A stretch of 64,000 bases of DNA from Mytilus galloprovincialis (lineage: Eukaryota; Mollusca; Bivalvia; Mytilida; Mytilidae): NCBI RefSeq assembly GCF_965363235.1, contig NC_134840.1, positions 86,090,916-86,154,915 on the forward strand. The letters are read 5' to 3'. Positions 6,124 to 59,221 of this stretch are shown here, piece after piece. The stretch's first letter is position 1, and each line of letters begins with the position of its first letter. The notes beneath the pieces are model-generated. The model worked only from the letters and a program-made list of their open reading frames with translations. It was not told where the DNA came from and did not search any database. Made by a program: the position numbers and the translations under genes.

Positions 6124-6276
6124 AAATGTAATTTCAACCGTTTGAAGGAACTGAATTAGATTGAAATTAATTTCTTCTAGTTGTCTCCCATAGATCGTTA
6201 GTTGTTTTCCCGCGCTTCATGGGATATAGCCATTCAGCACGACAGGGCCGACTCGAATAGACGTGTTTCTCAGTTG
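6124..6276 (+). repeat. Split direct repeat A1 (left end of the retrotransposon)
   Basis: A 153-bp block starting 'aaatgtaatttcaaccg' and ending 'gtgtttctcagttg'. It recurs without a visible difference at 10551-10703. As the 5' terminal repeat of a YR retrotransposon it should hold the promoter and transcription start; ORF1 begins nine bases after it ends. Confidence 0.93.
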
Positions 6277-9036: not shown

Positions 9037-9329
9037 TATGTATGTAGGTTGTAAACCTATTTTGTTTATGAAGCTGTGTATGCTTATCTGTTTTTTTACA
9101 GATGATATGTTAAAGGCTGTAGTAGTGCCTTGATTGTGTACTAACGTTACAATGCATATCTGAATTGGTTTCAGATTTTGGCATTAAGGCTTTAAATGGC
9201 CTTGTTGAGAACTAATATACTAATAAATACAAATGCTAACGTCAGCATTAAGACTATTGTACATAGTCTTGTGAGATGTACTAACAAGTCTTTTTCTGTT
9301 GATAGTTTCTTACATTTAAGATTCTGCTA

Positions 9330-10831: not shown

Positions 10832-10942
10832 TCAGCACATGGCACTGTCGTGTGGGTATTCAATTTGAACTTTAGTTTGGTTTTTTATTAGTATTATGTG
10901 CTTAGAGTTGGGTAGTCTATGGGTGTAGTAATTGTAGAAGAA
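10832..10942 (+). repeat. Split direct repeat B2 (right end of the retrotransposon)
   Basis: The terminal B block. It ends 'ttgtagaagaa' and the minisatellite resumes directly with 'caagatggatgtacagacc'. It differs from B1 at one position, early in the block. Confidence 0.92.
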
Positions 10943-11080
10943 CAAGATGGATGTACAGACCAATAAAACAAGATGGGTGTACAGAACAATAAAACATGAT
11001 GAGTGTACAGACCAATAAAACGTAATGGGTGAACAGACCTACAAAAATAATGGATGTACAGATCAATAAAATAAGATAGG
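10943..11080. repeat. 26-bp minisatellite, right block
   Basis: Five degenerate units continue the array interrupted at 6123. The first unit is in register with the sequence left of the element, showing that the element landed in an existing array. Confidence 0.92.
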
Positions 11081-15769: not shown

Positions 15770-15985
15770 GAACACAATTGACAAAGAATCACACGAACAA
15801 CAGCCAACAAAAGGCAACAAGTTCAAAATTCCAATACGCCAGAAGTGTATTTTGTCCACACAAGACCTATGTGTGACGCACAGATACAAAAGTTTGAAAG
15901 CCGAAACGAGTACAAAGTTGAACAGCATCGAGGACCAAAAGATCAAAAAGGTTGTGCCAAAAACGGCAAGGGTTTTCTGTTAAGT
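15770..15985 (-). repeat. Old, degenerate retrozyme-like repeat
   Basis: On the minus strand this contains a decayed version of the hammerhead core region: stem I strands 'gcgtca' and 'tggcgta' survive around 15837-15881, but the catalytic boxes are altered. The flank 'aagttgaacagcatcgagga' corresponds to 'aagttgaagagcattgag' in the copies at 29593 and 30818. The 99-codon plus-strand frame across it is probably chance. Confidence 0.55.
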
Positions 15986-16185
15986 TACCAGAAAATCCCT
16001 ATAATTTAGAGTAATTTATACTTTTGCAAACAGTAAATTTAATAAAATGAATATTCAAAAGATGTACATGATAAAGCTGAAGTATTAACTAATTACAGGA
16101 AACAACTGAAATATATTTACATAACCAGACATTTGAAACACAAAAGTAGACACATCCGAATACGTTTAAACCTCTACGCCAAGTG

Positions 16186-19284: not shown

Positions 19285-21779
19285 TAAATCCTCTGCCAGC
19301 ACTTAAAGAGAGCTACCTTTTGAATCAGATGAGCATGGCAAATTTTATTGAACTTGGGAATTTTGCAAAATATTTTGGAGAAAATGGATATCAGTCTGAT
19401 ACATCTGGTATTCGAAAAGGCAATATTCAACACCAAGTTTCGAGATTTAAAGATGGTATTAAGCTAAATGGAGGGATTGAACAATTACCTGTGGAATAGG
19501 TACATGTTCCATTATATTGATGATTTTCAGTATGCAAAAAGTTCTGTAATGAAATAGTAGATGTAGCTCTTGGAAAACAACCTTTGAAAACTCCAAGTTG
19601 TAACTTTGCACTTTATAATGAAATAGTTGAAAATGGCTTTTCCATCTTCCAAAGTTTAGTTTCTGATGAGGTCAACATTGACATTTGCAACCTTGAATAT
19701 CTTGGTGAGACATACAAACCAAATTTTTCAACAAGTGACTGGAAAAAGATTCAGTTGTTTGAATGGCATTTTCAAACATATTACAAACTAAAAGTAGGCT
19801 CAAGTTATGACAATATTTTAAAAAAGAAGGAGGAATTTCTGAACTTGTGTAAGTCAACAAAAACCAATGCACAAATCATCCATGGTATGGTTGGTAAAAC
19901 AATCGAAAAAAATCGTTTGAGGAAATGCTTAACAGAAGCCCTAAATGGTATTCAGCTACAAGTTGGAGGTATCAACCATTTGCAAGAAATTATAGAAGTT
20001 GACACCATGAACTGCATAACAACATATTTATCAGAGAACACTAATGTTCTATGTGTAGACTGCAAATCAAAATATAATCATGATCATGGAGTTCACATTC
20101 TTGTTAATCTTGAAAAAAACATCGAGATTACTATTCTAAATGATGCATGTGTTATCATCAGAGCAGTACTAAAACCAAAACATTTTGTAAATACACCCGA
20201 AATAATATTATCGTTCCTTCAAAGAGTCAATTCCACCAAGGTTTAAAATTCGTGACCAACTGAAGATGGGTGCTTTGAGTGATAACATACATCACATATC
20301 TAAATCACATGATAAGATGATGGAACCTGAAGAGTTTATAAAACCAAACTTATGTTCCACTTGCTTCAAGGATTTAGATATCTCAATTATCCTTTAGACA
20401 TAGATCATTTCAACGTTACCAACAAATGGCTCAAACATGTTTCTATACCAGTACAGATATTTTTAGAACACACCTACATAAGCAAAGATGTTAAAGCTAA
20501 CAATATTATCCAGATAAGACCAAAAGTAGCTTCTCTATATTGTCAGTTTGAGGCACACCTGAAAACTCTGAATCAAGCATATTGTGGAATTATTCAAGAT
20601 ATTTACACTGATGAATTGATAGTCAACTATCACAACATTTCGCTAACTTCACATGCAGGGATATCCCATAGTCAAAGAACCGGAAACCGGCGTCTAAGGA
20701 AGAGATCCTGAGCTCTGTTATTTTCGGACTTTTATGAAACGATATTCCATTGTTTATAGAGAAGTAAACGAAGAGATGGAAAACGAACACAAGATATCTA
20801 TAAAGGAGTGTCATTTAGCATTACTGATGGATAATCTTGTACATTTAACGATGGCAGTGGATCCATGTCATGGACAATGCAGAACAAATCAATTGTTCAC
20901 TCTTCCTTTAACTGTCAAAGGAATTCCAAAGAATGCATATATAACATCTAATTGGCATTTAGACAATTGTGATGGGTCGTCCAGTCATTGCTCTTGTATG
21001 CATCAGACACAACTTGAAAAAGATGATGTAAGTCTTTTTGGAACTAACAGCAGAACAGCAAACAACCAACAATATTTTCAAGGAAAATATGTCATGGGGA
21101 TTCCAAAGTCTTTTTGGAGTGCACTGTATAAACATGCTTATCGAAAGTTACTCCATGTTACAAAGAGTTTAGAAAAGAAAACTTGCCTCAATCGGTAATT
21201 GGCCATTATGAAGAAGACATTGATCAACTGAACAAAACAATGGAATTCATTAATTTGAACAGTGGCAATACAAGCCTTGACGATACTTTACCAATTGAAT
21301 ATCCAGCTCCTGTTTCTGAAATAATGATATCTTCAATGAAACATCTCCGGAGTCTTTGCATAGTTTACTAGAGGAAATGGATATATCAGTAGAATTAAAG
21401 GGGGATAGCAACTTAAGTATGCAACATTCAGAGGATGAGAGATTGTCTTTAGACATATCTGAAATTCAAAGTCACTCAACAACATTGAGTCTTGAAAATG
21501 TCGAGCTTGCTAGCCTTCAAGATGATGAGGAGGAAGAGAATATAGAGGGACTACTAAATGCCATTCTGCCAAATGATTTTGGAAGTTTTACACTTGAAAG
21601 GATTGATCAGTCTGCAACAGAATCCCAACCTTCAGTACTCCCTGTGTCTTCTCCGCCACCATTATTATGTAGACATCCTCCTCCAGCATCAGGTAGAGAT
21701 GACGATATTGTGGTTTTAAAAAAGGTGCTCGATGACATCCTGATCAAAACAGATGTTACTTCGGTACTGGCATGAAAAT

Positions 21780-22025
21780 ATGGATTTTTTGTGTTAATAA
21801 AATTTGCCTTTACAAAATGATAGAAATTATTGTAAATTAAGGAATGTATCTCCCTCATGCAAAGCTCTGATTTGGCTATACCTTTTGGACGTTTTGGATC
21901 ATAGCTCTTCATCTTTTACATAAGCTTTGGATTTCAAATATTTTGGCCACGAGCATCACTGAAGAGATATGTATTGTCGAAATGTGCATCTGGTGCAAGA
22001 AAATTGGTACCGTTAATTTTATGTT
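21780..22025 (+). mobile_element. Hammerhead-bearing repeat inserted in the broken gene
   Basis: Non-coding sequence interrupts the protein-like region between two parts that both look coding. It contains 'gctttggatttcaaatattt', 'tggccacgagcatcactgaa' and 'gcatctggtgcaagaaaatt', a block I recognise as very common in mussel DNA. Its 3' half carries a type I hammerhead motif (21953-21996). It is a diverged relative of the retrozymes at 29593, 30818, 52493 and 57920. Edges are approximate and no target duplication was identified. Confidence 0.7.
21953..21996 (+). ncRNA. Type I hammerhead ribozyme, divergent family
   Basis: Core boxes CTGAAGA (21959-21965, matching CUGANGA) and GAAA (21979-21982) are in place. 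Stem II is GATA/TGTC around a TGTAT loop. Stem III is ATG/CAT with a two-base loop, ending in the cleavage triplet ATC at 21988-21990. Stem I pairs GCATCA (21953-21958) with TGGTGC (21991-21996), six pairs including one G-U. Relative to the other family in this window (GCGTCA with TGGCGT; ACGC with GCGT) stem bases change in pairs while the catalytic boxes stay. Cleavage is predicted after 21990. Activity is inferred from consensus only. Confidence 0.75.
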
Positions 22026-24605
22026 AATGTGAAAGAAGACAGAAGTATATTTGCTCCAGATTATAAGATCGCCAAGAACTTACTGAAACTTATTGACTCT
22101 ACAGAAAAATAAAAGAAAGTTTTTACTCCAGAATTTCCTATTCTTCACCTTCGAAAATCCAAAATCACTAACTTGATATCAGCATATAAAGCAACGACAA
22201 AACTTCTGACAATTGAAAATATTGAAACAGCTACACGAAATATCTGGAGATTATCAGTGGCCCTTCGTCTTTCCTTTTTCGTATGTTTTTTTTCCCCACC
22301 CTTTCAGAAGAAAATTCAAGAAGTATTATGAAATTATTGGATGAATCACCAACAGAAATGCATCCACAATGGCGAGAACATTTTGACAGGTTTCTGCAGA
22401 AAGGACAAAGCCAAAATACGACATTTTGTCTGCATGTAGAACTCATGGGGCATTGTGATGAAATTGTTGCTATTGCCGTGTCAGAAAGGATTGGAGGAGA
22501 AAAGGGCTATAATCTGATGTTGGCAAATGTAAAATCATCACTACCATTCTCATTTCTCAATAATGCCTCCAGCTATCCTGGATTTTGCATAAGGTTAATG
22601 TTGTCACATTATAACGCTAGTCCGTTTCATCAGAAGTCAAACAATGAAGAGTGTAACTATTAATAGAAGCAGGTGCCAAAAGAAGACGGAGAAAAAACCG
22701 GAACACACCAGAATAGAAGAGAAGAGACAACAGAAGGTTAAAGGCTGACCAAAGAAATTTAATGTTTTAGCTCTATACAAAGTACATGTGATCCAATTGT
22801 AAAGCCCGATTGTACAATATCTACTACTGTAACTAACAAATCACTTGGAGTTAAAAAGGCCTTTGCAATTGACTTCTCTTCTGAAGATATGTCTAACAGA
22901 ATTAACTACAAATCCTTCTACCAGTGAGGAAATCTTGCCATATATTAATGATTTACGGATATTTGATTTTAAATGCGTCCCTAACCATATATCATCTAAT
23001 ACAAAGGTGGCAATCGTAGAGTTTGCAGCGGCCAAATTTAAAACCTTTGCAACAACAGGAGAAAGCTACATCAAATATGTGACGGGAAGAATTATCAACA
23101 AGCTACTCAGAGATTTACAAAATTTGCAAAGAATAATCATTTGCGAGGAAAAATACTCATTCACTCCAGACGTCTTCAAGGCTGCAACCAGACAAATCGC
23201 CAAACAAAAGATCCTGTAACCATAGCCCACCTCAAGAAGAAGGATGAAATCATCAGCAGAGACAAGTTCAGCAAAAAGGCTGCTATAACAACAGGATTAG
23301 GAATGAAAGCAGTGAGCACTTATCTTGGTAAACATCTGACAGAATTGGATATACAGGCAGATATAATTATAGATGTGGACAGTGAGGCTGTATATGGTCA
23401 ATGTGAATTTGAAGATTCGGATAAGTGTACTTGTCCCTTGTTTACAACACCAGTTAGGACTGTTTTCACATAAGGTAATGGATTGCAACATTCTGAAAAT
23501 TTGACCATGATCAAGCAGCGAAAGGTTGAAGCAGAAATGTCTGAGGCTGATTTGTTAAAGGATGTACAACTCCAACTTCATGATGGGGAATGTGTTATAA
23601 ACTATGTGACATCAGCGAACATAGACACTAATAGTATTCAGATCTTTGCAGTTAGTCTTTACTGGCCAAGAAATCCAGATGGCACTTTCAAATTTCCGGT
23701 ATATGTATGGTTGCAAAAACAAAAGCCCGAAATATATAACATCACAGGAATACTGACTATACTTGAAAGAGCATATATTCATGGTATTTCACATGAGAAG
23801 CTACTGAACAATGTTTTTTTCAGAACCTGCCTGGTATTGTTCACTCCTGAAATTCAAAGAAATAAATGAGTCTGGTGCTAAGAGATTTAAATGCACCATA
23901 AATGTTGATCAGTATGTTAAACTTTATTGGAAACTTTATTATCCTAAAAACGTGGAACAAGAGAAGTTAACTTTGAGGAAGTGCGCCAACATATAATTAA
24001 GATCCCAGGAAAGTCTGATTTTAGACTCCCCCAAACATAGATGCCACCAGAAAGTTCGTTGAGACAACTAGCAAAGCTAGTGCAATGCCAAGTTGACTAC
24101 CTATTAACTGTATTTGATACAGGAGCAAACTTACCAAATTTCATGACATCAGGGAGTTTGAAAGTAAGACAGGATGGATCAACAATTTTTAATATGGGAC
24201 CTAACTGTCATATTGACAACAGGGATAACCTTATTACTGTTCCAGAGGAAACACTCGCAGACAAACTTAAGGCACATACGATCCCTCTAAATAGAAAGTC
24301 AGGGAAAAGACAGTTAGATGACACACCACAGAAAGGCAAAAACAGCAAGAGACCACCAAAGATGTCTACACCAAGGTAAGTGTATATAATATACTTTATG
24401 ATATTGTTTTTCTTTACGTGGAAAAATAGTTTTTTTTTTATTAACAGTTTTACACCTGAAAATACTTTTCACTTTCTCTTTATAAAATGAAATGAATTTA
24501 TAAAAGTCATGGTTTCTAATTTTCACTTTATATCTAAACAGAGACAAGCAAAAAAATCCTTCAAAAGAATTTTATTTGTTAAATATTGACTTTGAAACCT
24601 GACTG

Positions 24606-28732: not shown

Positions 28733-31700
28733 GTAAGTGTTTATAAAATATTGAAGTAAATTTTGAATTATCCTTATATACAATTTCATTTTATATTTTA
28801 TTAACATATATTCTAGTCTTGGTATCTGACCGCTTTTTGGTCATCTCATTTTTTTTTTTTAATTTTTTTTTTTTTTTAATTTTGTAAACACTGATTCTAA
28901 TTAAGCAGTTGATCGTTCGATATGTTTGTTAAATATTTTAACCTTTCATGGATTATTTTTGCTTATACAATGTTTAGATAAAAATAAATGTGCATGAGAT
29001 ATGTTACATTAATGCCACATACCTTTACCTAAAATAATCAAAATTAGGGTTTCTAAATGAACAACTTTTTTTGTATATTTTTTTTAAATTATAGGCTCTG
29101 TACTGATAAGCAACCTAAAATATTGAGAAGAATTGTACAAATTGTAATTTGTATTTTGACTTTGTACAACATTCACTTATATCTTATACGATATTCTATA
29201 GTATGGATTTCGTTTTAAAAAAGCATTACACATGTATAGAATTTTTATTCAATGACCACATCATAAACCTAATTTTTAAAATACAAAAAAATATCCAGAT
29301 GGAGACAGGAAATGTAATTGATACATGGATGCCAATTAATGCTGATAGCATAATAGAACTTTGCCCCAGTAACAGTTCTGATAAAATGAAAATTACACCC
29401 AGTGACAATTCTGATAGTATTATAGGAATTGGCTCAAGTGAAAATTCTGATATTATAATAGAAATCGGCCCAAGTGAACATTCTAATGGTATAATAGAAG
29501 TTAGCCCAAATGACAGTCAGATTGGATGACACTGACTTTGAAACACCAATGATACATGATAGGAAGCATGCACTATATGGCCAACAGTTCCAAATAAACT
29601 CATCATAAATACCAGGACTAAATTTTATATATACGCCAGACACGCATTTCGTCTACAAAGACTCATCAATGACGCTCGAATCCAAAAAAGTTATAAAAAG
29701 CCAAATAAAGTATGAAGTTGAAGAGCATTGAGATCCAAAATTCCCAAAAGTGTTGCCAAATACAGCTAAGGTAATCTATACCTGATGTAGAAAAGCCTTA
29801 GTATTTAAAAAAATTCAAAATTTTGTATACAGTTGATTTATAAATATAACAAAATCAATGATAATTCATGTCAGCACAAAGAATGCTGACTACTGGGTAG
29901 GTGATACCCTCGGGGAAATAAATCTCCACCAGCAGTGGCATCGTCCCAGTGGTTTTTAATAAACTCATCAGCCCAACATCTAACCAATAAATCAAAACGG
30001 AAATTATTAGAACTTGCTGTGTCACTATATCTATTCCTCGGTATGATTATTGAATCTGATGTAGTTTGATACCGCATTGAGACAGCTGTAGGAACTTTAA
30101 TAAGATATTTGACGAGAAATCAAATTGAAGCTGTAAAAGACACATCTTTATTCGCAGTAACGATTCCTGATCTGCAACATTAGCGATATGAAGCAGTTAA
30201 AACCTTTTGAAAACTTGTTGTTTGAGGGTTCTTTCATGTAAATGAAAAGAGGGTGCAGCATTTCAAAGAGTAAATGATGTTGTGCAATTTCACTAGCCAT
30301 AGTTCGCTCACATGCTCAAACAAATGAAACAGAACTATTTTTGTATTTTGTAAATAAGGTTTATTGTGTGGTCATTGAATACAATTTCTATAGTTAAATT
30401 GAATGTTTATTTATAAAAAAAATCCATACTATTAATTGTGTACAAGTTATAAGTGAATTTTAGTCCAATGCAGTACAAAATGTAATTTCTACCAGCACTT
30501 TTTGTACAAAGTCAAAATGCAAATTATAAAGTGTACAAAATGATAACTTGTACACAACATATATAAAATACGTTTTAATCACTACGTTTTAATCACAATG
30601 ATTGTGCCAAGCCTTATTTATTCTGTTCTCAGATCTCTCCCGAACAAAAGAAAGAAAACATAAGGATAAATACACAAACTTTACAAATATAAATTAAACG
30701 AAAACTACAGTTCCTTGAAATATTTTTTATTATTAAGAACATTTCTAAAAAGAGAGACGTTTCCTCAAAACACCACCTTCAAGACGATTCCTTATTTTTT
30801 TCTGGTAATTTGTGAATAAACTCATCAAAGATACCAGGATTAAGTTTTGTATTTAGCCAGACGCGCGTTTCGTCTGCAAAAGACTCATCAGTGACGCTGG
30901 AATCCAAGAAAGTTAATAAGGCGAAATAAAGTACAAAGTTGAAGAGCATTGAGTACCAAAATTCCTAAAAGTTTTGCCAAATACAGCTAAAGTACTCTAT
31001 TCCTGAGGTAGAAAAGCCTTAGTATTTCAAAAATTCAAAAGTTTTGTAAACAGTTAATTCATAAATATCACCATATCAATAGTAATTTATGTCAGCACAG
31101 AAGTGATGACTACTGGGCTGGTGATACCCTAGGTCTGCAAAAGACTCTTTAGTGAATGGAGTTCTTGATGTCCCAAATATGCAGAATTGTATTCCACTTT
31201 ATTGAAAATAGATCAAGCTCTAAACACTTAAGGACGTGATCTCATGTGTTCCAGAAGGGTAAGCAGATCATACTCTAAAAACGGCACTAGTCGACGAATT
31301 CCCAGTATAGGAAATGAGGATGGGATTATGAAAATAGTATTTTATTCATATTAAATTCGAATTAAATTAACCAGAGTGACTGTAGCTTCAAACGATCAAA
31401 ATACCGGAAATACTTTATGCTAAACTAGAGGAACTTAATGTTAAATATTGACTGGAAATACAAAGGATATCGGAATGGCTATTGGATACACAACTTAAAA
31501 ATAAAAAAAATAATAAACCAAAGTCACATAGCACTGGTCATAGCGCCCCAAGTGTAGGACATTTGTATTTAAGTATACATAAAGATCATAAAAGACTAAA
31601 TTAATGTGCGAGAGATGAACCAAAAAGTTTATTTAACTTAATAAAGGGAGACGTACAGACAACAAGGGTTATAACACTGAAAGAAAGAAATATAACATAT

Positions 31701-43700: not shown

Positions 43701-46700
43701 GAAATGAATCTTATTCAAGAAGAAAATAAATACGAATGTCAAGGTGTGAAACGCAACATGTCTAACGTGTACAGATAATTGCATGTTATTCAACTTATTA
43801 TTTACTTTATATTTAAGACGAACGTGGTTAAGGTGCATTTGCATTTATATATGTTATACTAATTATATTCGGAGCATGCATGCTGTGAATCTGTTGACGC
43901 CTTTTGAAATTTTCATTCTTTTGTATAATAATTTTACAGGTAACATTTACAATATAAGGCCTCTCCCTTTTCATGTTCACATTCAAATTTGTCTGCATGT
44001 GTATTGTTTATATTTATCGTTCTGACTTGCTCTGAATATAATTGTAACACCTATTCATATGATTGTAGACATGTATTTGTATTTCCTAGTTACGAAACCA
44101 AATCACGTTACTTGAATACCCTAATCAGACATGATAGTTCCTTTTCAATTTACATAGTATGAGATTTAACTGAAACCCCCATATGAATTAATTTATCATT
44201 TCATCTTACAAGTTTTACAATTAAAATTCTAGACAGTGACTTTATATGATGATTAAAAAGCATATGCATTTGTAAATGCACGTTTTAACTTAATTTTAAA
44301 CACCATATCCTAAGGGCTATGGTGTTAGTACTTTTTTTTTTAACTGTATCGGTTTATTGATATGCGGAGCCTTTTTGGCAAATAAAAACGTATTTATATA
44401 TATAAAAAAGGAGATGTGGAATGATTGCAAACATAGCAACATTTAAATTCCCAACTTCCATTGAAGCTGTTACCAAACATTTCTATGGGTAAAAAGTAAA
44501 AACCACAAAAATACTGAACTCAGAGGAAAATCAATTCGGAAAGTCCATAATCACATGGCAAAATCAAATAACAAAACGCATCAAAAACGAATGTACAAAA
44601 ACTTTTTTACTCCTGACTTGGTACAGGCATTTTCAAATGTAGAAAATGGTGGATTGAACCTGGTTTTATAGCTAGCTAAACCTCTCACTTGTATGACAGT
44701 CGCATCAAATTCCATTATATTGTCACCGATGCGTGAACAAAACAAACAGACATAATGGGTAAAAATGTCAAAAATAGGGGCACAGCAGTCAACATTGTGT
44801 TATCATCTTAATCACTATAAAACACCAAATGTAACGAAGAAGCACAAAAAGGCATACATCAAATTAACATCCTCATTTTGATTATATTATACGATTTTAT
44901 TTGTCTATGTAAAATGCACCCATCAAGGAAGGAGGGTTTTGAGTACTGGTGTAAAATTGCGCGTTTAAAATTCGCACAGGTAGACATGAAATAATTTTGT
45001 CGTTCAAAGTATGACGGGATGCATAAATACAGTCACGCAGAAAAGATATAACAAAAACTGACTTAACAGTTAAAGTAATAATAATAAATAAAATAATAGT
45101 GTGGTTCAAAGTATGACGGGATACATAAGTACAGAGTCACGTCAAATGTATATCACAAAAAAGTTGGTTAACAGTAAAAGTAATATTAATAAATAAAATA
45201 ATTTTGTCATTCAAAGTATGACAAGATACATAGGTACAGAGTCACATCATAAAATAATTTTGTCATTCAAAGTATGACCAGATACATAGGTACAGAGTCA
45301 CATCATAAAAAAACACTTACAAAAAATGTCCCAAACTATTTACAATGTACTTGTGTTCGCAGTTTAAGCATTGTTTACAATATTCTCAATACATGCAAAC
45401 CGTTCACTTTGGTTTAATTTTTTTGAGTGGGAAGAAAATTAAAATCGTCTTATAATTCAGTACTCATGGTTAATGTTTCAAAAAAGCGACAGTGATCGAG
45501 TGGTTTCAACTTTGAAAAGCCTAAATTCACCTTTTTTTACTTTTGACTTGTCATTTAAACAACTACATGCCATTCCTTTTTTGAAAGTTATAAAATTCGG
45601 TTAACTGCATGAAACATCTTTACAAACCAAATTATTGGCGTCGGAGTACTTGAAATGCCAAACGCAGATTTTGATGGTTTTATGTTATGATCTGTTAACT
45701 ATTGTTAAAGAAAACTTTCATCTTATTTGTTATTGTTTTGTTCTATGATTTTTTAACGCTGATTCTTATGCTGATTGAAGAAAATATGTGTTGCTATGCA
45801 TGTTAGCTGGTTTTCTTTTGTTCACTTCAGTGTTCCTGTTGTTTGTTTGTTTTCCTCTTTTCCTAATGTGGTTGATGTGTTTCCCTCGATTTTAGTTTGT
45901 AACCCGGATATTTTTTTCTCTCAATCGATGTATGACCTTTAAATACCGGTATACTACTGTCGGCTTTATTTAGAGACTTTAATTCGTGTTAAAGAATACA
46001 GCCAGTTTAATGGAGAGGAATTTTGAATGATCTGTGATTATACATTACTATTTGTTTTTAGTGGTCAAGCCAAATCAACTGTCCAGCCTGCACTACATCA
46101 CCAACAGTACCCACAGTTAATGAAACTCGATGTAAACGAGGTTGCTGCTGAACTTGGGAGGTAGGTTCTGATTGATGGATCATGTCTATATTTATATAAT
46201 CCGCTGACATGAAACTGCATCGATAACATTTATAAAATATTGAAATTAATGGAATCACTAGGATTTTTTTACCCTCAGAAATAAGCCATTTCGGTCATAA
46301 CAAGTTGGGCTTTTAATGCACTTCCTAAGATGAAACGCGCGTCAATTAAATTGTAATACAACAATTTGGTCAATTGGAATGTTGGTGGACGCTTCATACC
46401 AAAGGGTGTATCTAGCCTAGAATTCAGCATTTCTGTGCTAACATAGAATATCTCTGAAGCTATATATATATATATATATATCATTTTTTAAATATATATT
46501 TGATGTTGAATCAAATGTTTTAATAATTCTAAACATAAAGACTTTCGTACTTTAAAGACATGGTTTTTCTTAGCCATATTAGGCATACTAGTAATATTTT
46601 AGAATTTGTGGTTTTAATGCCCTTCAAATTAGTAATTGATTTTGCATTATAACTACATTGATTCGAAATCCCCTTTGTTTATTCTTTGTATACGTGTTAT

Positions 46701-49700: not shown

Positions 49701-51458
49701 TTTTCGTTTGTTAATGAATAATCTGGCTACTCCAAAGTTGTGTTAAGAAGGAAACAAACAAAATCAAGGCGACAGTAGTTTACCGATGTTAAATCCCGAA
49801 AATCGATTAGAGGAAACAAAACAATACTTGCGGTTATCTCATAAACTTGAAAAGAAGCGAGATCGGGTGCGTTTCCTGCAATGTAATAACAAACAAAAAC
49901 AACGAAAAACTAGAGAAAACAAAGGTTCGATATAACAATTCAAATATAAGAAAGCAATGAATGAGGTTGTTAAATTTGTAATATGCCTTTTTGTGCTTCT
50001 TTGTTAAATATTTGTTTGTTTATATTGTGATTAATATACTTGTGCTACTTGTACATCCTGTCATTATTGTTTATGATATTCTCGTATTCTTGTCTTTCAT
50101 TTTTGCTGATGTGCTTTGTCTATATGCCTTTTGGTGTTACTTCGATGCAAATGGCGTGGCTCTTTACTTATACATCCCGTTATTGTGCTATTGTAAAACT
50201 TGTTTGTTGCTTGTCGTCCATTTTTGCTATGTGCTTTGTCTATATGCCTTTTTATGTTTCTTTGTTACATATACGACGTGGGTTTGTACTTATACATCCC
50301 GTCGTCATTGTGTTATTTTACTATTGTTAATTTGTGTATTATTGTCTTTATATTTTGCTAATATGCTTGGTCTATATGCCATTTTGTCCTTCTTTGTTGC
50401 ATTTTTTTAGTGATTAAGATTATAACACAATTTTGACTGCTGTATTTTTGACATTTTACCTATTATGTCTGTTTGTTTTGTTCACGCATCGTTGTCAATA
50501 TAATGGCATTTGATGTGACTGCCATACACAAGTGAGAGATTTAGCTAGCTATAAAACTAGGTTCAATCCACCATTTTCTACATAAGAAAAAAATTCCTGT
50601 ACCAAGTCAGGAATATGACAGTTGTTATCCATTCTTTTGGTGTGTTTGAGCTTTTGATTTTTCCATTTGGTAAGGGACTTTCCGTCTTGAATTTTCCTCG
50701 GAGTTTCAGTATTTTTGTTAGTTTACTTTTTACAAAACACTACATAAAAAAGAGAAACAAACACCATATTAAAACAACATAACATAGAAAAAGCGAGAGC
50801 CAAACAACAGTTCAAACCAAATACCGTTGTTACAAACCACTCTATGGAAGACTATATACCGAGAGTAATCTCGTGTGGTCCTGAAGGGTAATCGTATTTT
50901 TCATAATAAATTCTCAGAAATATCATGCCATTATCTTAGTCTTTCCTACCTTCTTGTTGAAAAGCCCAACTTATAAGGGTGATCCTCTGTGAGTCTTAAA
51001 TTTTTTTCGATAGATGCGCGTTTTTCATACGAGTTGTAAGATGCGCTTGAGGATAAAAAAAAAGTTGGTAGGGTAGGTCATAGCATTTATTTCGTTGAAG
51101 AGCCCTGTCCAACAAACACTCTAAATATTTTTGAAATGATTTGATCAATTATTACGTATTGATTTTTTTTATCCACATTTGCATTAATTTGATTGTTTTT
51201 TAGGAGGAAAATGCATTTGAGTTGAAAGTACCACGACCTGGCGGGACTGTCTATGTACGGACAAAACAGTGTGATGGTAAAACCGATTCCCATAGTGGCG
51301 AGCATCACCATGTCAGACATTACGTAATCTCGCGTGACGATAAACTGGACACGTCTGCCATGCTTCCTCCACGCCCAATACGTATGGCGAGGAGTAGCGA
51401 ATCTGGCAGTAGGGCATCGTCTAGACGATTGCCGCGAGCAACTAGCATTACACATTAA
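28603..51458 (+). CDS. CNBD2: CNBD2-like protein with two cyclic nucleotide-binding domains, nine exons
   Basis: Spliced from nine exons: 28603-28732, 37875-37962, 40181-40365, 42638-42765, 43479-43660, 46062-46160, 46732-46883, 47513-48534 and 51204-51458. All introns are GT-AG, every phase matches, and the joined frame gives 746 residues. Residues about 38-177 form a cNMP-binding domain: 'VVIKQGDTGDRFFIMLTG', a charged insertion, then the phosphate-binding cassette FGEVALMSEDAVRNATV with E142 and R152, the residues that hold cyclic nucleotide. Residues about 190-360 look like a second such domain with 'FGTVIARQGEPVSGLFFILR', but its cassette is 'IGDLEMVLD' and lacks the arginine, so it may not bind ligand. 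A basic linker and a serine/arginine-rich tail follow. In mammals CNBD2 binds cAMP and is needed for sperm function; that role here is inference. The ATG is the first after an in-frame TGA 21 bases upstream. Confidence 0.85.
29323..29520 (+). repeat. 36-bp tandem repeat, open in one frame (intron 1)
   Basis: About five units of 36 bp encode a 12-residue repeat: SSDKMKITPSDN, SDSIIGIGSSEN, SDIIIEIGPSEH, SNGIIEVSPNDS. The whole 126-codon frame runs 29149-29529 and an acceptor-like 'atatccag' sits just before the ATG at 29300. It lies in intron 1 of the CNBD2-like gene. It may be an unrecognised alternative exon or simply a minisatellite with an open frame. Confidence 0.45.
29593..29970 (-). mobile_element. 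Retrozyme copy (minus strand), about one monomer
   Basis: It begins at 'aaactcatcataaatacc' and a second start-like 'aaactcatcagcc' appears near 29958, about 365 bp on, which fits one monomer of a tandem element. Inside are the hammerhead (29633-29675), 'gaagttgaagagcattgaga' and the terminal 'gactactgggtaggtgatac'. It is non-coding and lies in intron 1 of the CNBD2-like gene. Reading frames over it are spurious. Confidence 0.75.
29633..29675 (-). ncRNA. Hammerhead ribozyme relic
   Basis: Read on the minus strand: GCGTCA, then TTGATGA in place of CTGATGA, stem II GTCT/AGAC, GAAA, a short stem III and the cleavage site before TGGCGT at 29638. The first base of the catalytic box is changed, so cleavage is probably lost although stems I and II are intact. 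Confidence 0.7.
30434..30560. mobile_element. Small inverted-repeat element
   Basis: 'ttgtgtacaagttat' at the left is repeated inverted as 'ataacttgtacacaa' at the right, about 125 bp apart. The inner 'ttgtacaaagtcaaaatgca' is the reverse complement of part of 29140-29175, so a second, rearranged copy lies nearby. It is non-coding. Confidence 0.5.
30818..31135 (-). mobile_element. Retrozyme copy (minus strand)
   Basis: Runs from 'aaactcatcaaagataccag' to 'actactgggctggtgatacc'. It is clearly homologous over its length to 29593-29970 and, in reverse, to 52524-52867. It carries one hammerhead at 30854-30897. It lies in intron 1 of the CNBD2-like gene. Confidence 0.8.
30854..30897 (-). ncRNA. 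Type I hammerhead ribozyme
   Basis: On the minus strand: GCGTCA, CTGATGA, stem II GTCT-TTTGC-AGAC, GAAA, stem III ACGC/GCGT, C17 at 30860, then TGGCTA. All catalytic boxes match the consensus. Stem I is shorter than in the best copy because the 3' strand is TGGCTA rather than TGGCGT. The 'GACGAAACGCGCGTC' run closely resembles the published Schistosoma satellite hammerhead, from memory. Confidence 0.82.
31700..31803 (-). repeat. Dispersed repeat M1, copy 5
   Basis: Diverged reverse copy with 'tggtctcattggcaatcatc' and 'ccacatcttctcattttt'. Confidence 0.65.
32058..32230 (+). repeat. Dispersed repeat M3, forward copy
   Basis: M3 is my label for the family with 'gggacagtcaaactcataaa' and 'aactgacaacgccatggct'. 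Reverse copies lie at 38290 and 54618. The 67-codon frame over it is not a gene. Confidence 0.75.
32255..32365 (+). repeat. Partial copy of repeat M2
   Basis: 'caaaaatactgaactcagag' through 'caactgtcatatacccgact', the left part of M2, directly after the M3 copy. Confidence 0.7.
32848..32940 (+). repeat. Dispersed repeat M1, copy 6 (forward)
   Basis: 'agaagatattgtatgattgc' followed by a diverged 'caattagaaaactctccatt'. Confidence 0.65.
33304..33605 (+). repeat. SINE-like mollusc repeat, copy 1
   Basis: About 300 bp from 'acaagaatgtgtccatagta' to 'ctatcgtaggtgggac', with the internal 'caagttgattggacttcaac' and a run of 'gacgaacgaacgaacgg'. I recognise the family from many mollusc genomes. A second copy follows at 33815. 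Confidence 0.75.
33815..34268 (+). repeat. SINE-like mollusc repeat, copy 2, internally duplicated
   Basis: Same family as 33304-33605, but the central 'gcactatcattttct' to 'actttaacctgaa' segment (about 170 bp) is present twice in tandem, giving 450 bp instead of 300. It ends 'ctatcgtaggtggggcataa'. Confidence 0.75.
34269..34455. repeat. Diverged ~100-bp tandem duplication
   Basis: 'aaaaatcgggtgataaaaaa' to 'taatatgttataa' is repeated as 'aaaaatcgggtgaattaaaa' to 'ataatatgttataatg', both with 'gatatcttaaatcaggytat' inside. Confidence 0.6.
34901..34987 (-). repeat. Dispersed repeat M1, copy 7
   Basis: 'ttgacctataatggtaaata' to 'ataccacatcttcttatatc', reverse sense. Confidence 0.7.
35610..35658. 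repeat. 49-bp near-perfect palindrome
   Basis: Two 24-bp arms, 'ataagatatcttaagactga' plus 'atat' and its exact reverse complement, flank a single central A at 35634. There are no mismatches and the symmetry stops abruptly at both ends. It lies in intron 1 of the CNBD2-like gene. Such a sequence can extrude as a cruciform, or form a 24-bp RNA hairpin if transcribed. Confidence 0.9.
37085..37235 (+). repeat. Dispersed repeat M4
   Basis: 'ggccagctgaaggacgccta', 'gaagacctattggtggcctt' and 'cacatcccccatttcctttc'. I recognise it as abundant in mussel DNA. A diverged copy is at 48590. Confidence 0.65.
37875..37962 (+). CDS. CNBD2: CNBD2-like gene, exon 2
   Basis: Follows 'tttgtttcag' and ends 'GACAG|GTATGT' in phase 2. 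Reads VLTDVIRNCDYTKACRDDVV and IKQGDTGD, the first strands of the first cNMP-binding domain including the 'G-D-x-G-D' turn. Confidence 0.87.
38255..38525 (-). repeat. Dispersed repeat M3, reverse copy (intron 2)
   Basis: Contains 'cttacccttccggagcactt', 'gggttcgtgttgcttattct' and 'atgagtttgactgtccctct'. It parallels 54618-54818 in the same orientation and 32058-32230 in the opposite one. Confidence 0.75.
39088..39130 (+). repeat. Dispersed repeat M1, copy 8 (fragment)
   Basis: 'gaaatgtggtatgattgtca' and 'acagctatccaccaaag'. The 100-codon frame crossing it is not supported as a gene. Confidence 0.55.
40181..40365 (+). CDS. CNBD2: CNBD2-like gene, exon 3
   Basis: Follows 'gaaattctcag', begins FFIMLTGTTSVYIDTVKSDE and ends 'CACTACG|GTAAGA' in phase 1. 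After the domain's beta strands it carries a lysine- and glutamate-rich insertion (EEMSEKDIIEKMLEEETGKK) between the early strands and the phosphate cassette. Confidence 0.9.
41064..41150 (-). repeat. Dispersed repeat M1, copy 9
   Basis: 'ccctgtgttgaaggccgtac' to 'ggagagttgtctcaatgg', reverse sense. It is followed by reverse M2 and then M5 sequence, a repeat cluster in intron 3. Confidence 0.65.
41175..41260 (-). repeat. Partial copy of repeat M2 (reverse)
   Basis: 'ataaaaccaggctcaaccca' and 'gtcaggaatatggcagttgt' are the reverse complement of the diagnostic M2 blocks. Confidence 0.65.
41320..41445 (+). repeat. Dispersed repeat M5
   Basis: 'gatgtgttccctcagtttag', 'gttcgatttatgactattga' and 'gctggtatactactattgct'. 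Confidence 0.65.
42638..42765 (+). CDS. CNBD2: CNBD2-like gene, exon 4 (phosphate-binding cassette)
   Basis: Follows 'ggttttatttatag' and ends 'ATGAAG|GTAATG' in phase 0. Encodes AGKSFGEVALMSEDAVRNAT and VIADEETDLLVVSRELFNRS. This is the cAMP/cGMP contact loop, with the glutamate (E142) that binds the ribose and the arginine (R152) that binds the cyclic phosphate both present, so ligand binding by this domain is likely. Confidence 0.93.
43479..43660 (+). CDS. CNBD2: CNBD2-like gene, exon 5
   Basis: Follows 'aatttacattttag' and ends 'ATTCTAAG|GTAAAT' in phase 2. Begins with a charged helix (AKQEEEYKEREDFIQ), then 'CPLFRSWTSRFKRLLELS', the usual linker helix, and 'FGTVIARQGEPVSGLFFILR', the opening strands of a second cNMP-like domain. 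Confidence 0.92.
44403..44470 (+). repeat. Dispersed repeat M1, copy 10 (forward)
   Basis: 'aaaggagatgtggaatgatt' followed by a diverged remainder. An M2 copy begins directly after it. Confidence 0.6.
44490..45315 (+). repeat. Long copy of repeat M2 with internal tandem units
   Basis: Left part 'atactgaactcagaggaaaa', 'ttggtacaggcattttcaaa' and 'agctagctaaacctctcact'; then four units that each contain 'ttcaaagtatgac' at 45002, 45105, 45210 and 45266, spaced 103, 105 and 56 bp. The tandem block differs from that in the copy at 49960, so the internal units evolve quickly. Confidence 0.7.
45836..45976 (+). repeat. Dispersed repeat M5
   Basis: 'ttgatgtgtttccctcgatt', 'ttagtttgtaacccggatat' and 'ataccggtatactactgtcg'. 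Confidence 0.7.
46062..46160 (+). CDS. CNBD2: CNBD2-like gene, exon 6
   Basis: Follows 'tttgtttttag' and ends 'CTTGGGAG|GTAGGT' in phase 2. Encodes GQAKSTVQPALHHQQYPQLM and KLDVNEVAAELG, a histidine- and glutamine-containing loop inserted in the second domain. Confidence 0.85.
46461..46483. repeat. TA microsatellite
   Basis: About eleven TA dinucleotides in intron 6. Confidence 0.85.
46732..46883 (+). CDS. CNBD2: CNBD2-like gene, exon 7
   Basis: Follows 'aaacatattgcag' and ends 'CTCATAG|GTAGGC' in phase 1. Encodes a strongly charged helix (ENYNKLVQKKEKDLTQEQIK, then IRRKEGYAAAERHRNQSR) before 'IELCSIEENDLIG', which leads into the degenerate second cassette. Confidence 0.9.
47513..48534 (+). 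CDS. CNBD2: CNBD2-like gene, exon 8 (large)
   Basis: Follows 'aatttcttattcag' and ends 'GATGAGAGAGAG|GTAATT' in phase 0. It completes the second cNMP-like fold with DLEMVLDLETNYSTITCTAN and 'TVAMVLDAKNYDRLVAKK', where the arginine of a working cassette is missing. The remaining ~270 residues are basic (HPVRKRRTIPRSLKQLKRM) and then acidic (DDFFDWETSDSN), probably largely disordered, with a short helix 'LRTLEDRLKDFCSQY'. Confidence 0.93.
48590..48700 (+). repeat. Dispersed repeat M4, diverged
   Basis: 'ttgttgtctctttgaaacat' and 'ccgtttccattctctatttt' match the 3' half of the copy at 37085. Confidence 0.55.
49760..49930 (-). repeat. Dispersed repeat M5, reverse copy
   Basis: 'aaggcgacagtagtttaccg' and the following AT-rich tail match the reverse M5 copy at 15300. 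It abuts the reverse M2 copy. Confidence 0.55.
49960..50730 (-). repeat. Long copy of repeat M2 (reverse) with ~130-bp tandem units
   Basis: Four tandem units are marked by 'tatatgcctttt'-like words at about 49983, 50121, 50241 and 50373, followed by 'cattttgactgctg'-like sequence, 'ttagctagctataaaactag', 'accaagtcaggaatatgaca' and 'gagtttcagtatttttgtta'. Long frames of 139 and 96 codons here are hydrophobic by-products of the T-rich repeat. It lies in intron 8. Confidence 0.7.
51204..51458 (+). CDS. CNBD2: CNBD2-like gene, exon 9 (end)
   Basis: Follows 'gattgttttttag' and runs in phase 0 to the TAA at 51456-51458. Encodes EENAFELKVPRPGGTVYVRT and ends in a serine- and arginine-rich tail (MARSSESGSRASSRRLPRAT) that offers basophilic kinase sites of the R-x-S type. 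A variant polyadenylation signal ATTAAA lies at 51498-51503. Confidence 0.87.
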   Translation, partial: EENAFELKVPRPGGTVYVRTKQCDGKTDSHSGEHHHVRHYVISRDDKLDTSAMLPPRPIRMARSSESGSRASSRRLPRATSITH

Positions 51459-52015: not shown

Positions 52016-52492
52016 CTTTTGTAAAAACTTTTTGTAAAAACTTTTGTAAAACGTGTGGAATATTCTTGAGATGCGTCTTCTAAATTTATGTAACATGTCT
52101 TTAAAAATAATACATACTATTATTATTTTTCATGAATTTAGATTTAAAAAAAAACAAACGCTGTATACAATTCCTACAAAATAAAACCAAACGTCATAAA
52201 AACAGGTGTCCGTTTACTCGTTTTCAAGCGTGTGGTTGACAATAAGTTGGATAAGATCGATTGGAAACGAAGTTGTAACTTTATCTAGGATCAGACTTCC
52301 ATTATGTAGTTATTTTTGACATAAGTGGTATTCTTGCCTCTTCTAACTTTTCACACAATAGGATAAAGTGTTCCATCATTTCATCTGCTTTACTACAGAG
52401 TTTACAAGTTGAGCTTATATGATTCTTTGAAAATGAAAATGGGTTTGTAGGATATAGTTCCCAGTTGAAATTTTAAGACGTACAGGAATTTT

Positions 52493-52915
52493 TGGTGAGT
52501 CTTTTGTAGACGAAGCGTGCGTCTGGCGTAAATATAAAATTTTAATCCTGGTAACTATGATGAGATTATTTACCACCACTGGGTCAATGTCACTGCTGGT
52601 GTAATTTTAATTTCCCGAGAGTATCACCAGCCCAGTAGTCAGCACTTCTGTGTTGACTTGAGTTATCATTGATATGTTCATAATTATAAATTAACTGTTA
52701 ACAAAAATTTGAATTTTTGAAATACTAAGGCTTTTCTACATCAGGAATAGATAAGCTTAGCTGTATTTGGCAAAACTTTTCTCTTTAACTTTGTATTTTA
52801 TTTGGCCTTTTTAACATTTTTTTATTCGAGCGTCACTGATGAGTCTTTTGAAGACGAAACGCGCGTCTGGCGTAAATGTAAAATCTTAATCCTGGTATCT
52901 ATGATGAGTTTATTT
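52493..52915 (+). mobile_element. Retrozyme, tandem partial dimer with two hammerhead sites
   Basis: A degenerate hammerhead (52493-52529, boxes altered) and a consensus one (52830-52873) lie in the same orientation with predicted cleavage sites after 52523 and 52867, 344 nt apart. After each comes the same sequence: 'tggcgtaaatataaaatttt' and 'aatcctggtaactatgatga' at the first, 'tggcgtaaatgtaaaatctt' and 'aatcctggtatctatgatga' at the second. This head-to-tail arrangement is what integration of more than one round of a circular RNA's cDNA gives, and is described for animal retrozymes. It is non-coding. The monomer includes 'ctgctggtgtaattttaatt' and 'cagtagtcagcacttctgtg'. Confidence 0.85.
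52830..52873 (+). ncRNA. Type I hammerhead ribozyme, best copy
   Basis: GCGTCA (52830-52835) pairs with TGGCGT (52868-52873) as stem I, six pairs with two G-U. CTGATGA (52836-52842) and GAAA (52856-52859) are the catalytic boxes. Stem II is GTCTT/AAGAC with a TTG loop. Stem III is ACGC/GCGT, too short for a normal loop, as in satellite and retrozyme hammerheads that may work best as dimers. The cleavage triplet is GTC, with the cut predicted after C52867. Confidence 0.88.
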
Positions 52916-52929
52916 ACTACAACTATCCC

Positions 52930-53890
52930 ATCACTTTAACCTGTACCAAGAAAATAAAGTAAAGGTCAGATGAACCAAACTGGAAATACATGTTGACCTT
53001 ACAATCATTTCATACACCACTTAAGCTTTAAATGTAGTTGACCTATTGCACACGGAAGAAACAAACAAAACCAAGAAAACTTAACATTGCGCAATACACC
53101 ATGAAAATGAGGACAAGGTCAGATGAACGCTGCAAGACATGTACACCATACAATCATTACTTGTTTAAAATAATGTTGACCTGTTCCATATAGTATCTAA
53201 GAAAGAAACCAAATCAGGAAAAATTAAGATTGGCCAATGAACCATGAAAATGAAATCATGGTCAGATGATAATTGCCAGACTAACATATAAACCTTTTAA
53301 TCATTCCATACACCAAATATAGTTGACATATTGCTAAAAGTATTAGAAAAACAGACCAAAAACAAAAATTTAAAATTGAGCAATGAACCGTAAAAATTAG
53401 GTCACGGTCAAATAAAACATACCAGACTATCATGTACACCGTAAAATATTCCTATTCACCAAATATAGATGACCTATTACATATAGAATTGAAACAACAG
53501 TTCGAAACACAAAAACTTAACTTTAACCACTGAACCATGAAAATGAGGTAAGGGCAGACGACACATGTCAGTTGGACATGTACACCTTACAATTATGTCA
53601 TAAACCAAACATATGAGACCTTTTGCTTATAGTATCTGATATATGGACGTAACCACGAACACTTCATCTTGTTCACTGATCCATGAAATGAGGTTGAGGT
53701 CAAGTGAAAAGTGTCTGACGGGCATGCGGACCTTACGCACATACCAAAGATAGTTATCCTATTATAAAGTAGAGAGAAATAAAGAATACAAAAAATCTTA
53801 CATTTGTTTTCAAGTAGTCACTGAACAATGAAAATGAGGTCAAGGACAATGGACATATAACAGGCGGAAACTTCATAACATAAGGCACCT
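52930..53890 (+). repeat. Satellite-like array, ~145-bp unit, about seven copies
   Basis: The phrase 'aaccatgaaaatgaggtcaa' and its variants recurs at about 53101, 53245, 53390, 53537, 53693 and 53828, a spacing of 135-156 bp, with the companion 'ccaaatatagttgacctatt'. Copies are well diverged. I recognise the unit as widespread in bivalves. It begins within about 20 bp of the end of the retrozyme. Confidence 0.8.
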
Positions 53891-54617
53891 ATATACAATG
53901 TATGAAGGATCCAGGTCCTTTACCTTCTGAAATATTAAGCTTTTAAGCGGTTAGCTAACGTCGTCAAGTTTGTTAACAATTATACTCTTTCATAATTTAC
54001 AATAATAATTATATCAAGGAAAATTCTTGTCCAAACAGACATGCAGATAACTGGGCTCCCCTCAAAACAATTGTGAACATCTTAGCTGGTTCTTCCATGA
54101 ATTACATCCAGGAGTAATATTCGGAGGTAGGAGGTTAAAATCTTTAATTGGCAGAAGTTGAATTTCAAAGTGTATATCCTTGGCGGAATTCTGAGAACAT
54201 TCTGACTGTCATTAGATGTTCTTTTGTGGTCTTTCAAAATATTCTTTTGATATTTTGACTTAATTATGTATATATTATCAAAATAAAATCAGTCTGAGCC
54301 AAAAATTATATAAAGTCATCAGTCACAAACCAATAAACCTTAAATAAAACCCCACTAAAAGTGGTATTATATTTGTATTGAATTAATTCATTCGTTCTTT
54401 AATTTTTCAATTTGGTTTATCGTAGTAAGGTTCTAATATTCCTTCCAAGCTGTACGATATTTTTCCAATTCTAAAGCTAAATAATGACCTGTATTTTGTG
54501 GTTTTTTTTTCTTCTCATGAGAAGATTTGTTCGCCGTCTTGTCTTATCTTGTTATCGGGTGTATTGGTAATCAAAAGATAACTAAAATTGGCAAATCAAA
54601 TATTGAAGAAAAAAGTA
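53891..54617. other. Non-coding stretch, no gene seen
   Basis: AT-rich sequence between the satellite and an M3 copy. No exon or RNA gene was recognised. Confidence 0.55.
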
Positions 54618-56880: not shown

Positions 56881-57899
56881 ATTCGGTAGGTCACTTTTGA
56901 GGAAAAGGACGAAGGGATTGTGATTACAACGATTGGAACATATCCGTCGTCATCTGTGAAACAGATATTCCATAACTCGTTTTTATATGGTTCCAATTTC
57001 ATTACTTTGAACTCTTGATTTAATAGCTTTCTTAAGCTTGTGAGCAGCAACCCTCTATCAAGGAATTCCTGATATGAAACGCCAACCCTAGAATATCAAG
57101 TGGGGTATATGCACTCCATATGTAGGCGCTGTTGGAATGTTGCTTTCAAGAAATGGAAAGTTCACATTTATGATGTAAATCAAGATACGAGACCGTTTTA
57201 ACTGTATCTATTGTATTCTTAATTTCAAATCCAATGGAATACATGCGTTCAACATAGTCACCAACTTCGAATTATGTGGTGTGTTGACATCATCAGAAGT
57301 TAGGAGATACTTCTAACTTCGTTCAATTCTTCTTAAGATACTCCTATGGGAAGTCAGCTGCATGTGAAAAAAAGAACAAGTCTACAAGAAGGGGAACACG
57401 GTTGATTCCCATTAAAATTTCGATAAATTGTTGACACGTCCTCCAACATTTGGAACGTCCAAATAAAAAAATCAAGCATCTTTATAATGTCAGTTTCAGA
57501 AGAAAAAATATTTGTTTAAATCAAAGTGATTTTTTACAAAGGACGATGTGTCCCTCCTAAGACGAGATACTTGTATACGTTTTTATTAAACAAAGAAGGC
57601 CCACCCTTTTAATTTGTCTTTTAGTTTGGAATAGGGAATACTTGTGTAAAAGGTAGAAAAGTCAATTGTAATAATACTATTGCAGGATGAAAGAGTCTTA
57701 AATTGTATGTACTCTAAAAGATCTTTTAATATTTATTAGTATCCACATCTGGTTCACGCCCACTGTAGAATATGCAGTTTTGCAATAACTTTAAAGTCCA
57801 GCTTTGATTGCTGTTAAAACTGATGTAGATACTTTAGAAAGAGGATTCGTAGAGCAATATACCGTTGTTTGTTAGGACACTTTTCTACCAAAGGAATAC

Positions 57900-58162
57900 T
57901 TTACTTTTTATTTGGCACATTTTTTTTTAAATTTTGGATCCCCAATGCTCTTTAACTTGTATTTGTTTGGCTTTATAAATTTTGATATGAGCGTCACTGA
58001 TGAGTCTTATGTAGACGAAACGCGCGTCTGGCGTACTAAATTATAATCCTGGTACCTTTATTAACTAATTAACTAGTTTAGGAGTTTTGAGTCTTTTGTA
58101 GACGAAACACGCGTCTAGTGCAAATACACAATTTCAATCTTGGTATCTATTATGAGTTTATT
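57900..58162 (+). mobile_element. Retrozyme inserted in the Penelope-like relic
   Basis: Two hammerhead regions in the same orientation, a consensus copy (57991-58034) and a degenerate one (about 58086-58121), with 87 nt between predicted cut sites, so the intervening monomer is internally shortened. Each is followed by a version of 'aatcctggtatctatgatga'. Upstream sequence 'ccccaatgctctttaacttg' is the reverse of 'aagttgaagagcattgag' in the copies at 29593 and 30818. Penelope-like coding sequence resumes at 58163. Confidence 0.78.
57991..58034 (+). ncRNA. Type I hammerhead ribozyme
   Basis: GCGTCA (57991-57996) and TGGCGT (58029-58034) form stem I; CTGATGA (57997-58003) and GAAA (58017-58020) are the catalytic boxes; stem II is GTCT/AGAC around TATGT; stem III is ACGC/GCGT; the predicted cut is after C58028. 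All conserved positions are met. Confidence 0.87.
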
Positions 58163-59221
58163 TATGTAGTTTTGGTATCCAATATAGATGGAGGATCCAG
58201 TAATTCATCTTGAACAGACCAATCGTTATCTTGGATTCCCTCTTTAGAAAGTGTCGTGTTGAGTTTCCAACGAAACTGCCAATACCTAATTAATTTATCA
58301 AGCACTTTATGTAATGTGATCTACAAAAAAACGCTGTTGTGTGGGGCTTTATCTGTGGGGATAATAACATATTTGTCATGGAGGTAGGACAAGTTTAACC
58401 CATTTCCTGGCATAATCCTCGACTGAATCAATCAATATTTTGAGGTTGTGTTTCCAATTGACGGGTATAGACGCACGAGATTTCGGGCCTTTAGATAACA
58501 CATTTCGCAGACAAGTGTTATTGACAATGTATAGGTCAACGGTAATAACGTGTTCAACCGGATTATATATGAATGGGAAACTAGTACCGGTGCACTCAGG
58601 AGATTGAAACTTGAAGTCGTCAATATATATCTTTCAACACGTGTTTGTATTTGAAAATTGTACATGCAATTGATTTGGTATAGGTACAATGTATAAGCAA
58701 TGTTAAGTACAAACTGGTTTTTAAAATAGGGAGGTATTTTCAGGCGAACAGATTTCTGGTGTCGCAGTTCCCAATTGTCGAATCCAGTATATCTCTTTTA
58801 GTCCTAGGAGAGGCATTGCAAGATGAGGATTTTTGTTCTGTGATGTATTTTTTTGATACTACGAACTTCCATAGAAACGAATGAATTATCAGGCTGCTTT
58901 AAATGCTGGTCAATAATGTCGCTTACATTGTTGTTGATGTCTGATCTATGGCCGCAAACACGTTTGTTTAGCCTTCCTTTCGTTTCACCGACTTATACCA
59001 ATCCGCAAAGGTTACTCTCTAATCTGAAAGACGACATTTATAGATTTACAAATCAGATTATCTTAACCTCTGGTAAAATAAGACTGTTTAGTTTAATTTC
59101 TAGTGAATTGAGCATCTGGTATTAAAAGTTTTGCAGCCATTGACTTCACATTTCGAATTGAGATTTGTTTAATATCACAGCCTTAGTCTATTTAGAAAGA
59201 GCATATATATCATTTTGTTGC

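Follow-up and report, generated by a model that had tools for sequence, protein, structure and literature searches.

The repeat at 52493-52924 on the + strand of the window (the whole 64-kb stretch of DNA that was analysed), hereafter copy A, is in all likelihood an old insertion of approximately 1.25 units of a non-autonomous metazoan non-LTR retrozyme, which would be cut once at most and would release no unit RNA. The sequence-only reading of this locus had proposed two same-strand hammerheads 344 nt apart; the spacing and the downstream ribozyme stand, whereas the upstream site proves to be half a site with no hammerhead covariance match.

Layout of copy A and its hammerhead sites

Copy A is bounded by an 88-nt direct repeat (52493-52580 versus 52837-52924) with 89% identity and an offset of exactly 344 nt, within which lies the tandem homology previously proposed to follow the two cut sites (52524-52570 versus 52868-52915). 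The predicted cut points, 52523/52524 and 52867/52868, coincide with GUC triplets in the sequence, in agreement with the coordinates first read. The features of copy A and of the adjoining DNA are as follows:

52493-52580, + strand: 5' terminal repeat of copy A, running from about helix II onward and then through the post-cut stretch; half site, predicted dead
52524-52867, + strand: unit of 344 nt between the two GUC sites, from the sequence and the alignment of copies A, B and D
52578-52636, + strand: predicted hairpin 1, directly 3' of the insertion end point on the unit
52637-52658, + strand: predicted hairpin 2, with a comparable hairpin in copy D and none in copy G
52830-52873, + strand: type I hammerhead with a complete core (RF00163, 32.5 bits), predicted to be cut at 52867/52868
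52837-52924, + strand: 3' terminal repeat of copy A, the second member of the 88-nt repeat
52868-52924, + strand: tail between the cut and the insertion's 3' end, which lies at +57 in copy A and at +48 to +50 in copies B, C2 and D (blastn)
52942-53785, + strand: degenerate array of six 146-bp units, not part of the element

The G+C content of copy A is 34%, and no ORF of at least 110 aa is present between 52493 and 52924. Alignment of copies A, B and D reveals a gap of approximately 20 nt in the unit of copy A relative to the other two, and 344 nt is therefore probably a length private to copy A. Folded as a circle, the 344-nt unit has a predicted energy of -69.0 kcal/mol compared with a mean of -61.0 (sd 5.3) for 40 single-base shuffles, which is only mildly beyond chance, and no hammerhead is present in this predicted circular fold. 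The satellite reported beside the element is real, and its six units begin approximately 20 nt past the 3' end of copy A; no similarity was detectable between this array and the hammerhead repeat.

A hammerhead core pattern is matched at five positions in the window when as many as three mismatches are tolerated, and exactly at three of these, compared with a mean of 0.00 in 100 shuffles; together with the length and identity of the 88-nt repeat, this rules out a repeat arising by chance. The downstream site is matched end to end by RF00163 (Hammerhead_1) at exactly 52830-52873, the span for which a covariance match had been anticipated, with an E value of 7.3e-6 in 1.4 kb and 3.3e-4 in 64 kb. 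Its score sits just under the Rfam gathering score of 34 bits, and for this reason a default-threshold scan of the 64-kb window returned no matches. Two further hammerhead matches in the window lie at 57991-58034 (33.0 bits) and 30857-30894 (25.9 bits).

Helix III of the downstream hammerhead (ACGCGCGU) consists, beyond A-U, of a single C-G pair with a GCGC loop, and in the isolated 44-nt RNA another fold (-13.1 kcal/mol) is favoured over the hammerhead pairs (-5.5 kcal/mol) by approximately 7.6 kcal/mol. Amphibian hammerheads with a comparably weak helix III are reported to cut mainly as dimers (PMC7229834), and by analogy the downstream cut may be slow in a single-copy transcript.

The upstream site matches the core pattern with three mismatches, reading TTGGTGA for CTGATGA and GAAG for GAAA. 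The repeat begins inside the motif, and the 5' strand of helix I is consequently supplied by flank outside the repeat, which does not pair with UGGCGU. No hammerhead was found by cmscan of 52440-52560 at E values up to 10, the only match being a weak one to U4, and none is present in the free fold; the covariance scan and the free fold together rule out the upstream site as a working hammerhead. It is the 3' part of a hammerhead only. The core position that we take to be C3 reads U in copy A. In the PAc hammerhead, substitution of C3 by G abolishes cutting (PMC11167929). With a single competent site, copy A could be cut once at best and would release no 344-nt unit.

Family copies in the window and the ends of insertions

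Nine more copies or pieces of the repeat, none of which had been noted before, were found in the 64-kb window by a profile search, giving ten in total (A, B, C1, C2 and D to I) on both strands. The search returned 12 rows, two of which are filled by copy A, and the twelfth, at 50998-51125 (E 0.065), is doubtful and was left out. With gaps excluded, the identity among copies A, B and D is 88-89% over aligned positions. Searches of phage, plasmid, E. coli, prokaryote-genome, viral and metagenome-contig collections returned no matches to the family. The other copies are:

12174-12316, - strand: copy H, an old fragment with a decayed hammerhead and tail
15834-16054, - strand: copy E, an old fragment
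21758-21999, + strand: copy F, an old fragment
29592-29970, - strand: copy D, one permuted unit with TGATGAGTTTATT at each end, 365 nt apart; hammerhead decayed (21.1 bits)
30812-31154, - strand: copy B, comprising a 22-nt hammerhead piece, an internal deletion, a hammerhead (25.9 bits) and a tail
46358-46666, + strand: copy G, an old fragment
53966-54057, - strand: copy I, an old fragment
57880-58058, + strand: copy C1, a partial unit with a full hammerhead at 57991-58034 (33.0 bits)
58088-58164, + strand: copy C2, a 77-nt piece that starts at about helix II and reaches the common 3' end, lying 3' of C1

Copy I lies approximately 180 nt beyond the far end of the 146-bp array, on the opposite strand to copy A, and the other eight copies lie elsewhere. 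Copies C1 and C2 stand head to tail (57880-58164, + strand), with C2 starting 16-30 nt past the 3' end of C1, as if a later insertion had struck the end of an earlier one.

Of the ten copies, six (A, B, C1, C2, D and H) retain the post-cut stretch. When compared with the continuing unit of copy A by blastn, the copies end at +48 (D), +49 (C2), +50 (B), +57 (A) and +33 (C1) relative to the cut, and nhmmer with the same query places the ends at +59 (D), +49 (C2), +51 (B), +58 (A), +35 (C1) and +54 (H, E 0.22). Compared with the 3' end of copy A, H ends at +48. Anchored extension with looser gap costs gives +49 for C1 and +54 for H and continues to +142 in D, the ends of C1 and D thus being method-dependent; by the same extension E and F end at +27 and +18, and G and I do not include this part of the unit. 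The four copies with clear 3' ends stop +48 to +59 past the cut rather than at the cut, those of C1 and H being less clear, and the family seems, from these alignments, to share an internal 3' end approximately 50 nt past the cut. On a random ring of 344 nt, four ends within 10 nt would be expected with p ~1e-4 and six ends within +33 to +57 with p ~1.2e-5, both values being post hoc and assuming independent insertions.

The 100 nt of flank past the ends of A, B, C2, D and H exhibit no local similarity to the continuing unit (p 0.22-0.96), under a scoring in which the positive control, A against D, reaches 110; the flank of C1, at only 16 nt, says little. The flank of D gives p values of 0.25 and 0.23 in this control, but global alignment of its next 60 nt with the continuing unit gives 0.57 against 0.47 +/- 0.03 for random sequence, 3 sd higher, and a 26-nt match to +65 to +90 of the unit occurs at 29384-29407, 185 nt past the end (E 0.004). 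This second match lies inside a 36-bp tandem array, and we take it to be a chance match, or possibly a remnant.

Three of the four copies with a placeable 5' end (A, B and C2) start at helix II or a few nt before it. The starts of A (52493) and C2 (58088) both lie near the beginning of helix II, and that of B is marked by the 22-nt hammerhead piece at 31154-31133, which was found by eye and differs from B's own hammerhead at two positions, compared with 6-8 mismatches for the best match in each of five shuffled windows; the true start of B is this piece or a few nt nearer helix II. Copy D starts at +35 and stops at +48, and is a whole unit with a short overlap (the 13 nt of TGATGAGTTTATT at its ends) that was opened near the common end and not at the cut. 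Copy A thus amounts to approximately 1.25 units, and B resembles it in length apart from the internal deletion. Anchored extension in the 5' direction with loose gap costs overran A, C1, C2 and E into A+T-rich flanking DNA, halted in B at the deletion junction (31133) and left the ends of H and F uncertain, and was used for D only. Target-site duplications are not demonstrable at A, B, C2 or D (p 0.83, 0.09, 0.02 and 0.22, respectively).

Two predicted hairpins lie directly beyond the point on the unit where insertions end, and together contribute -29.1 kcal/mol in the fold of 52568-52663. Comparable hairpins fold in D, the older copy G folds otherwise, and hairpin 2 of B has one mismatch (by eye), in a comparison with too few sequences for covariation. 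Pol III boxes are weak, with an A-box-like string at 52868-52878 (one mismatch) and a B-box-like string at 52581-52591 (two mismatches), both on the + strand. The former lies just past the cut and the latter just past the common 3' end.

Proposed origin of copy A and alternative readings

Copy A would have arisen as follows. Family RNA would be cut into units by its hammerheads and circularised, probably by tRNA ligase, and the unit RNA is thought to be reverse transcribed by the enzyme of another element, as published for elements of this kind. The first-made cDNA end of copy A would lie approximately 50-57 nt past the cut site, and copying would have proceeded once round the unit, passing through the cut junction twice, before stopping within the following hammerhead, close to where helix II starts. 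The product would carry a complete downstream hammerhead and half of an upstream one. Since the copies traverse the cut junction, the template would have been whole at that point, either as a re-closed circle or as an uncut multimer, and a linear multimeric template would give the same ends as a circle.

Insertions made by a Penelope-like reverse transcriptase have a fixed internal 3' end (PMC11167929), and this likeness suggests, though it falls short of proof, such an enzyme as the partner of this family. A more general proposal is put forward tentatively, as a possibility that is less probable than not: that the enzyme copying mussel-type retrozymes is a Penelope-like reverse transcriptase, which starts at one internal site approximately 50 nt past the cut and beside a hairpin, on circular or uncut multimeric RNA, and that the first or second pass often ends where the hammerhead is folded, a process of which the ends of genomic copies would be the record. 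If this were true, many new dimers would have a non-functional upstream ribozyme from the outset, and circles would come only from longer copies; the partner enzyme would be named, and a locus with one complete and one half hammerhead would be explained.

Pfam was searched with 10 of the 21 listed ORFs, and none of these matched a Penelope-type enzyme (reverse transcriptase plus GIY-YIG). A partner enzyme would usually lie elsewhere in the genome. The sole reverse transcriptase match among those 10 ORFs precedes a tyrosine-recombinase-like ORF, in an element at 6285-10361 (+ strand) that we take to be a DIRS-like retroelement; the reverse transcriptase ORF spans 6871-9033 and is followed by the recombinase-like ORF at 9330-10358, which has a Phage_integrase match just below the Pfam cut-off. 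Related 26-bp tandem arrays flank this element at 4207-6125 and 10941-11081. Elsewhere in the window, a one-strand run of ORFs of 110-220 aa occupies 19584-24379 (+ strand); none of the six scanned had a Pfam match at E 0.01, and the run is possibly a broken mobile element or gene.

Three other readings of copy A were weighed. That it is an active tandem pair, cut at both sites to release a 344-nt circle, as the sequence-only reading held, would account for the exact spacing, the 89% repeat and the one good hammerhead, but the start of the repeat truncates the upstream motif inside the ribozyme, leaving it without helix I and core bases, and the failure of this site to match the covariance model or to fold as a hammerhead makes the reading very unlikely; the downstream ribozyme could conceivably cut the upstream strand in trans. 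A fixed-end element of SINE-like or LTR-like type, with a terminal repeat of 80-90 nt extending from helix II to about TTTATTTA, is unlikely, if less so. In such an element a circle would be unnecessary, the inner edge of the 3' repeat would be where the hammerhead lies, and recombination would have left C2 as a solo repeat. Both the helix II start and the 3' end at +49 to +57 common to A, B and C2 agree with this reading, as does C2, which comprises a single such repeat; D, however, begins elsewhere (+35) as a permuted single unit, and the matches to the A and B boxes are weak.

Least probable, and highly improbable, is an origin from satellite-type tandem DNA in which recombination or gene conversion relocated dimers without any retrotransposition. 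The tandem arrangement and the satellite that adjoins copy A would be expected from it, but the copies are dispersed on both strands, four clear ones share a common end, and the adjoining satellite has no detectable similarity to the element. A retrozyme insertion that stopped within a second hammerhead is the reading retained here for copy A.

Comparison with known retrozymes and Penelope-like elements

The assignment of the locus to metazoan non-LTR retrozymes, made in the sequence-only reading, is borne out by the type I hammerhead, the dimer-like layout, the lack of an ORF of at least 110 aa, the low G+C content and the size class. Elements of this kind possess a type I hammerhead with a complete core, at least two same-strand tandem hammerheads 150-450 bp apart, a dispersed multicopy family and, when present, target-site duplications of more than 4 bp; they are non-coding and low in G+C, have no LTR, PBS or PPT, and yield linear and circular RNA of unit length in tissue. 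In copy A the complete core is found at 52830-52873, at a score below gathering, and the family is dispersed, with ten copies or pieces in 64 kb and one doubtful besides; the tandem pair survives only as a remnant, and copy A is therefore filed as a decayed relative rather than an active member.

In Mytilus galloprovincialis, repeats of 350-390 bp with approximately 5000 type I hammerheads have been described, together with circular RNA in abundance (Cervera and de la Pena 2020, PMC7229834). Copy A resembles these retrozymes in its type I hammerhead, small non-coding repeats, low G+C content and dimer-like layout, and the 365-nt unit of D falls inside their size class, whereas copy A differs in its single complete hammerhead and 344-nt unit. 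This likeness to the published Mytilus clones (MN642551-MN642576) is one of described features. The weak helix III, with one pair and a palindromic four-base loop, is shared with the satellite hammerheads of newt and axolotl (HHR_Amex1 in the latter; PMC7229834), from which copy A presumably differs in animal group and in unit sequence; according to the 2020 papers, helix III is firmer in most hammerheads of invertebrates.

The 2020 Mytilus paper (PMC7229834) regards Penelope-like elements as a strong candidate partner on other grounds, and a 2020 review (PMC7761336) states that animal retrozymes contain no conserved motif revealing their partner retrotransposon. A fixed 3' end of animal retrozymes is not described in the available portions of PMC7229834, PMC11167929, PMC7761336, PMC8490949 and PMC10886601, and may be in print elsewhere.

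The closest parallel for such an end is PAc. In the green anole, the PAc enzyme initiates at fixed stem-loop sites internal to its RNA and prefers AT-rich target DNA; the fixed start was shown in vitro, and genomic copies end at the start sites (PMC11167929). The cut is at position 26 of the ORF and the start sites are at 111-118, which by subtraction places the start sites 85-92 past the cut. The family of copy A has no coding region, and membership among Penelope-like elements is not claimed, the likeness being one of layout: both have tandem or partial-tandem copies, a hammerhead, and insertion ends internal to the unit and past the cut, at 85-92 in PAc and at +48 to +59 here. The locus itself is another decayed copy of a known kind of element, and the common 3' end is the more important part, as a fixed end would make the question of the partner enzyme testable from genome sequence alone, through the ends of copies.
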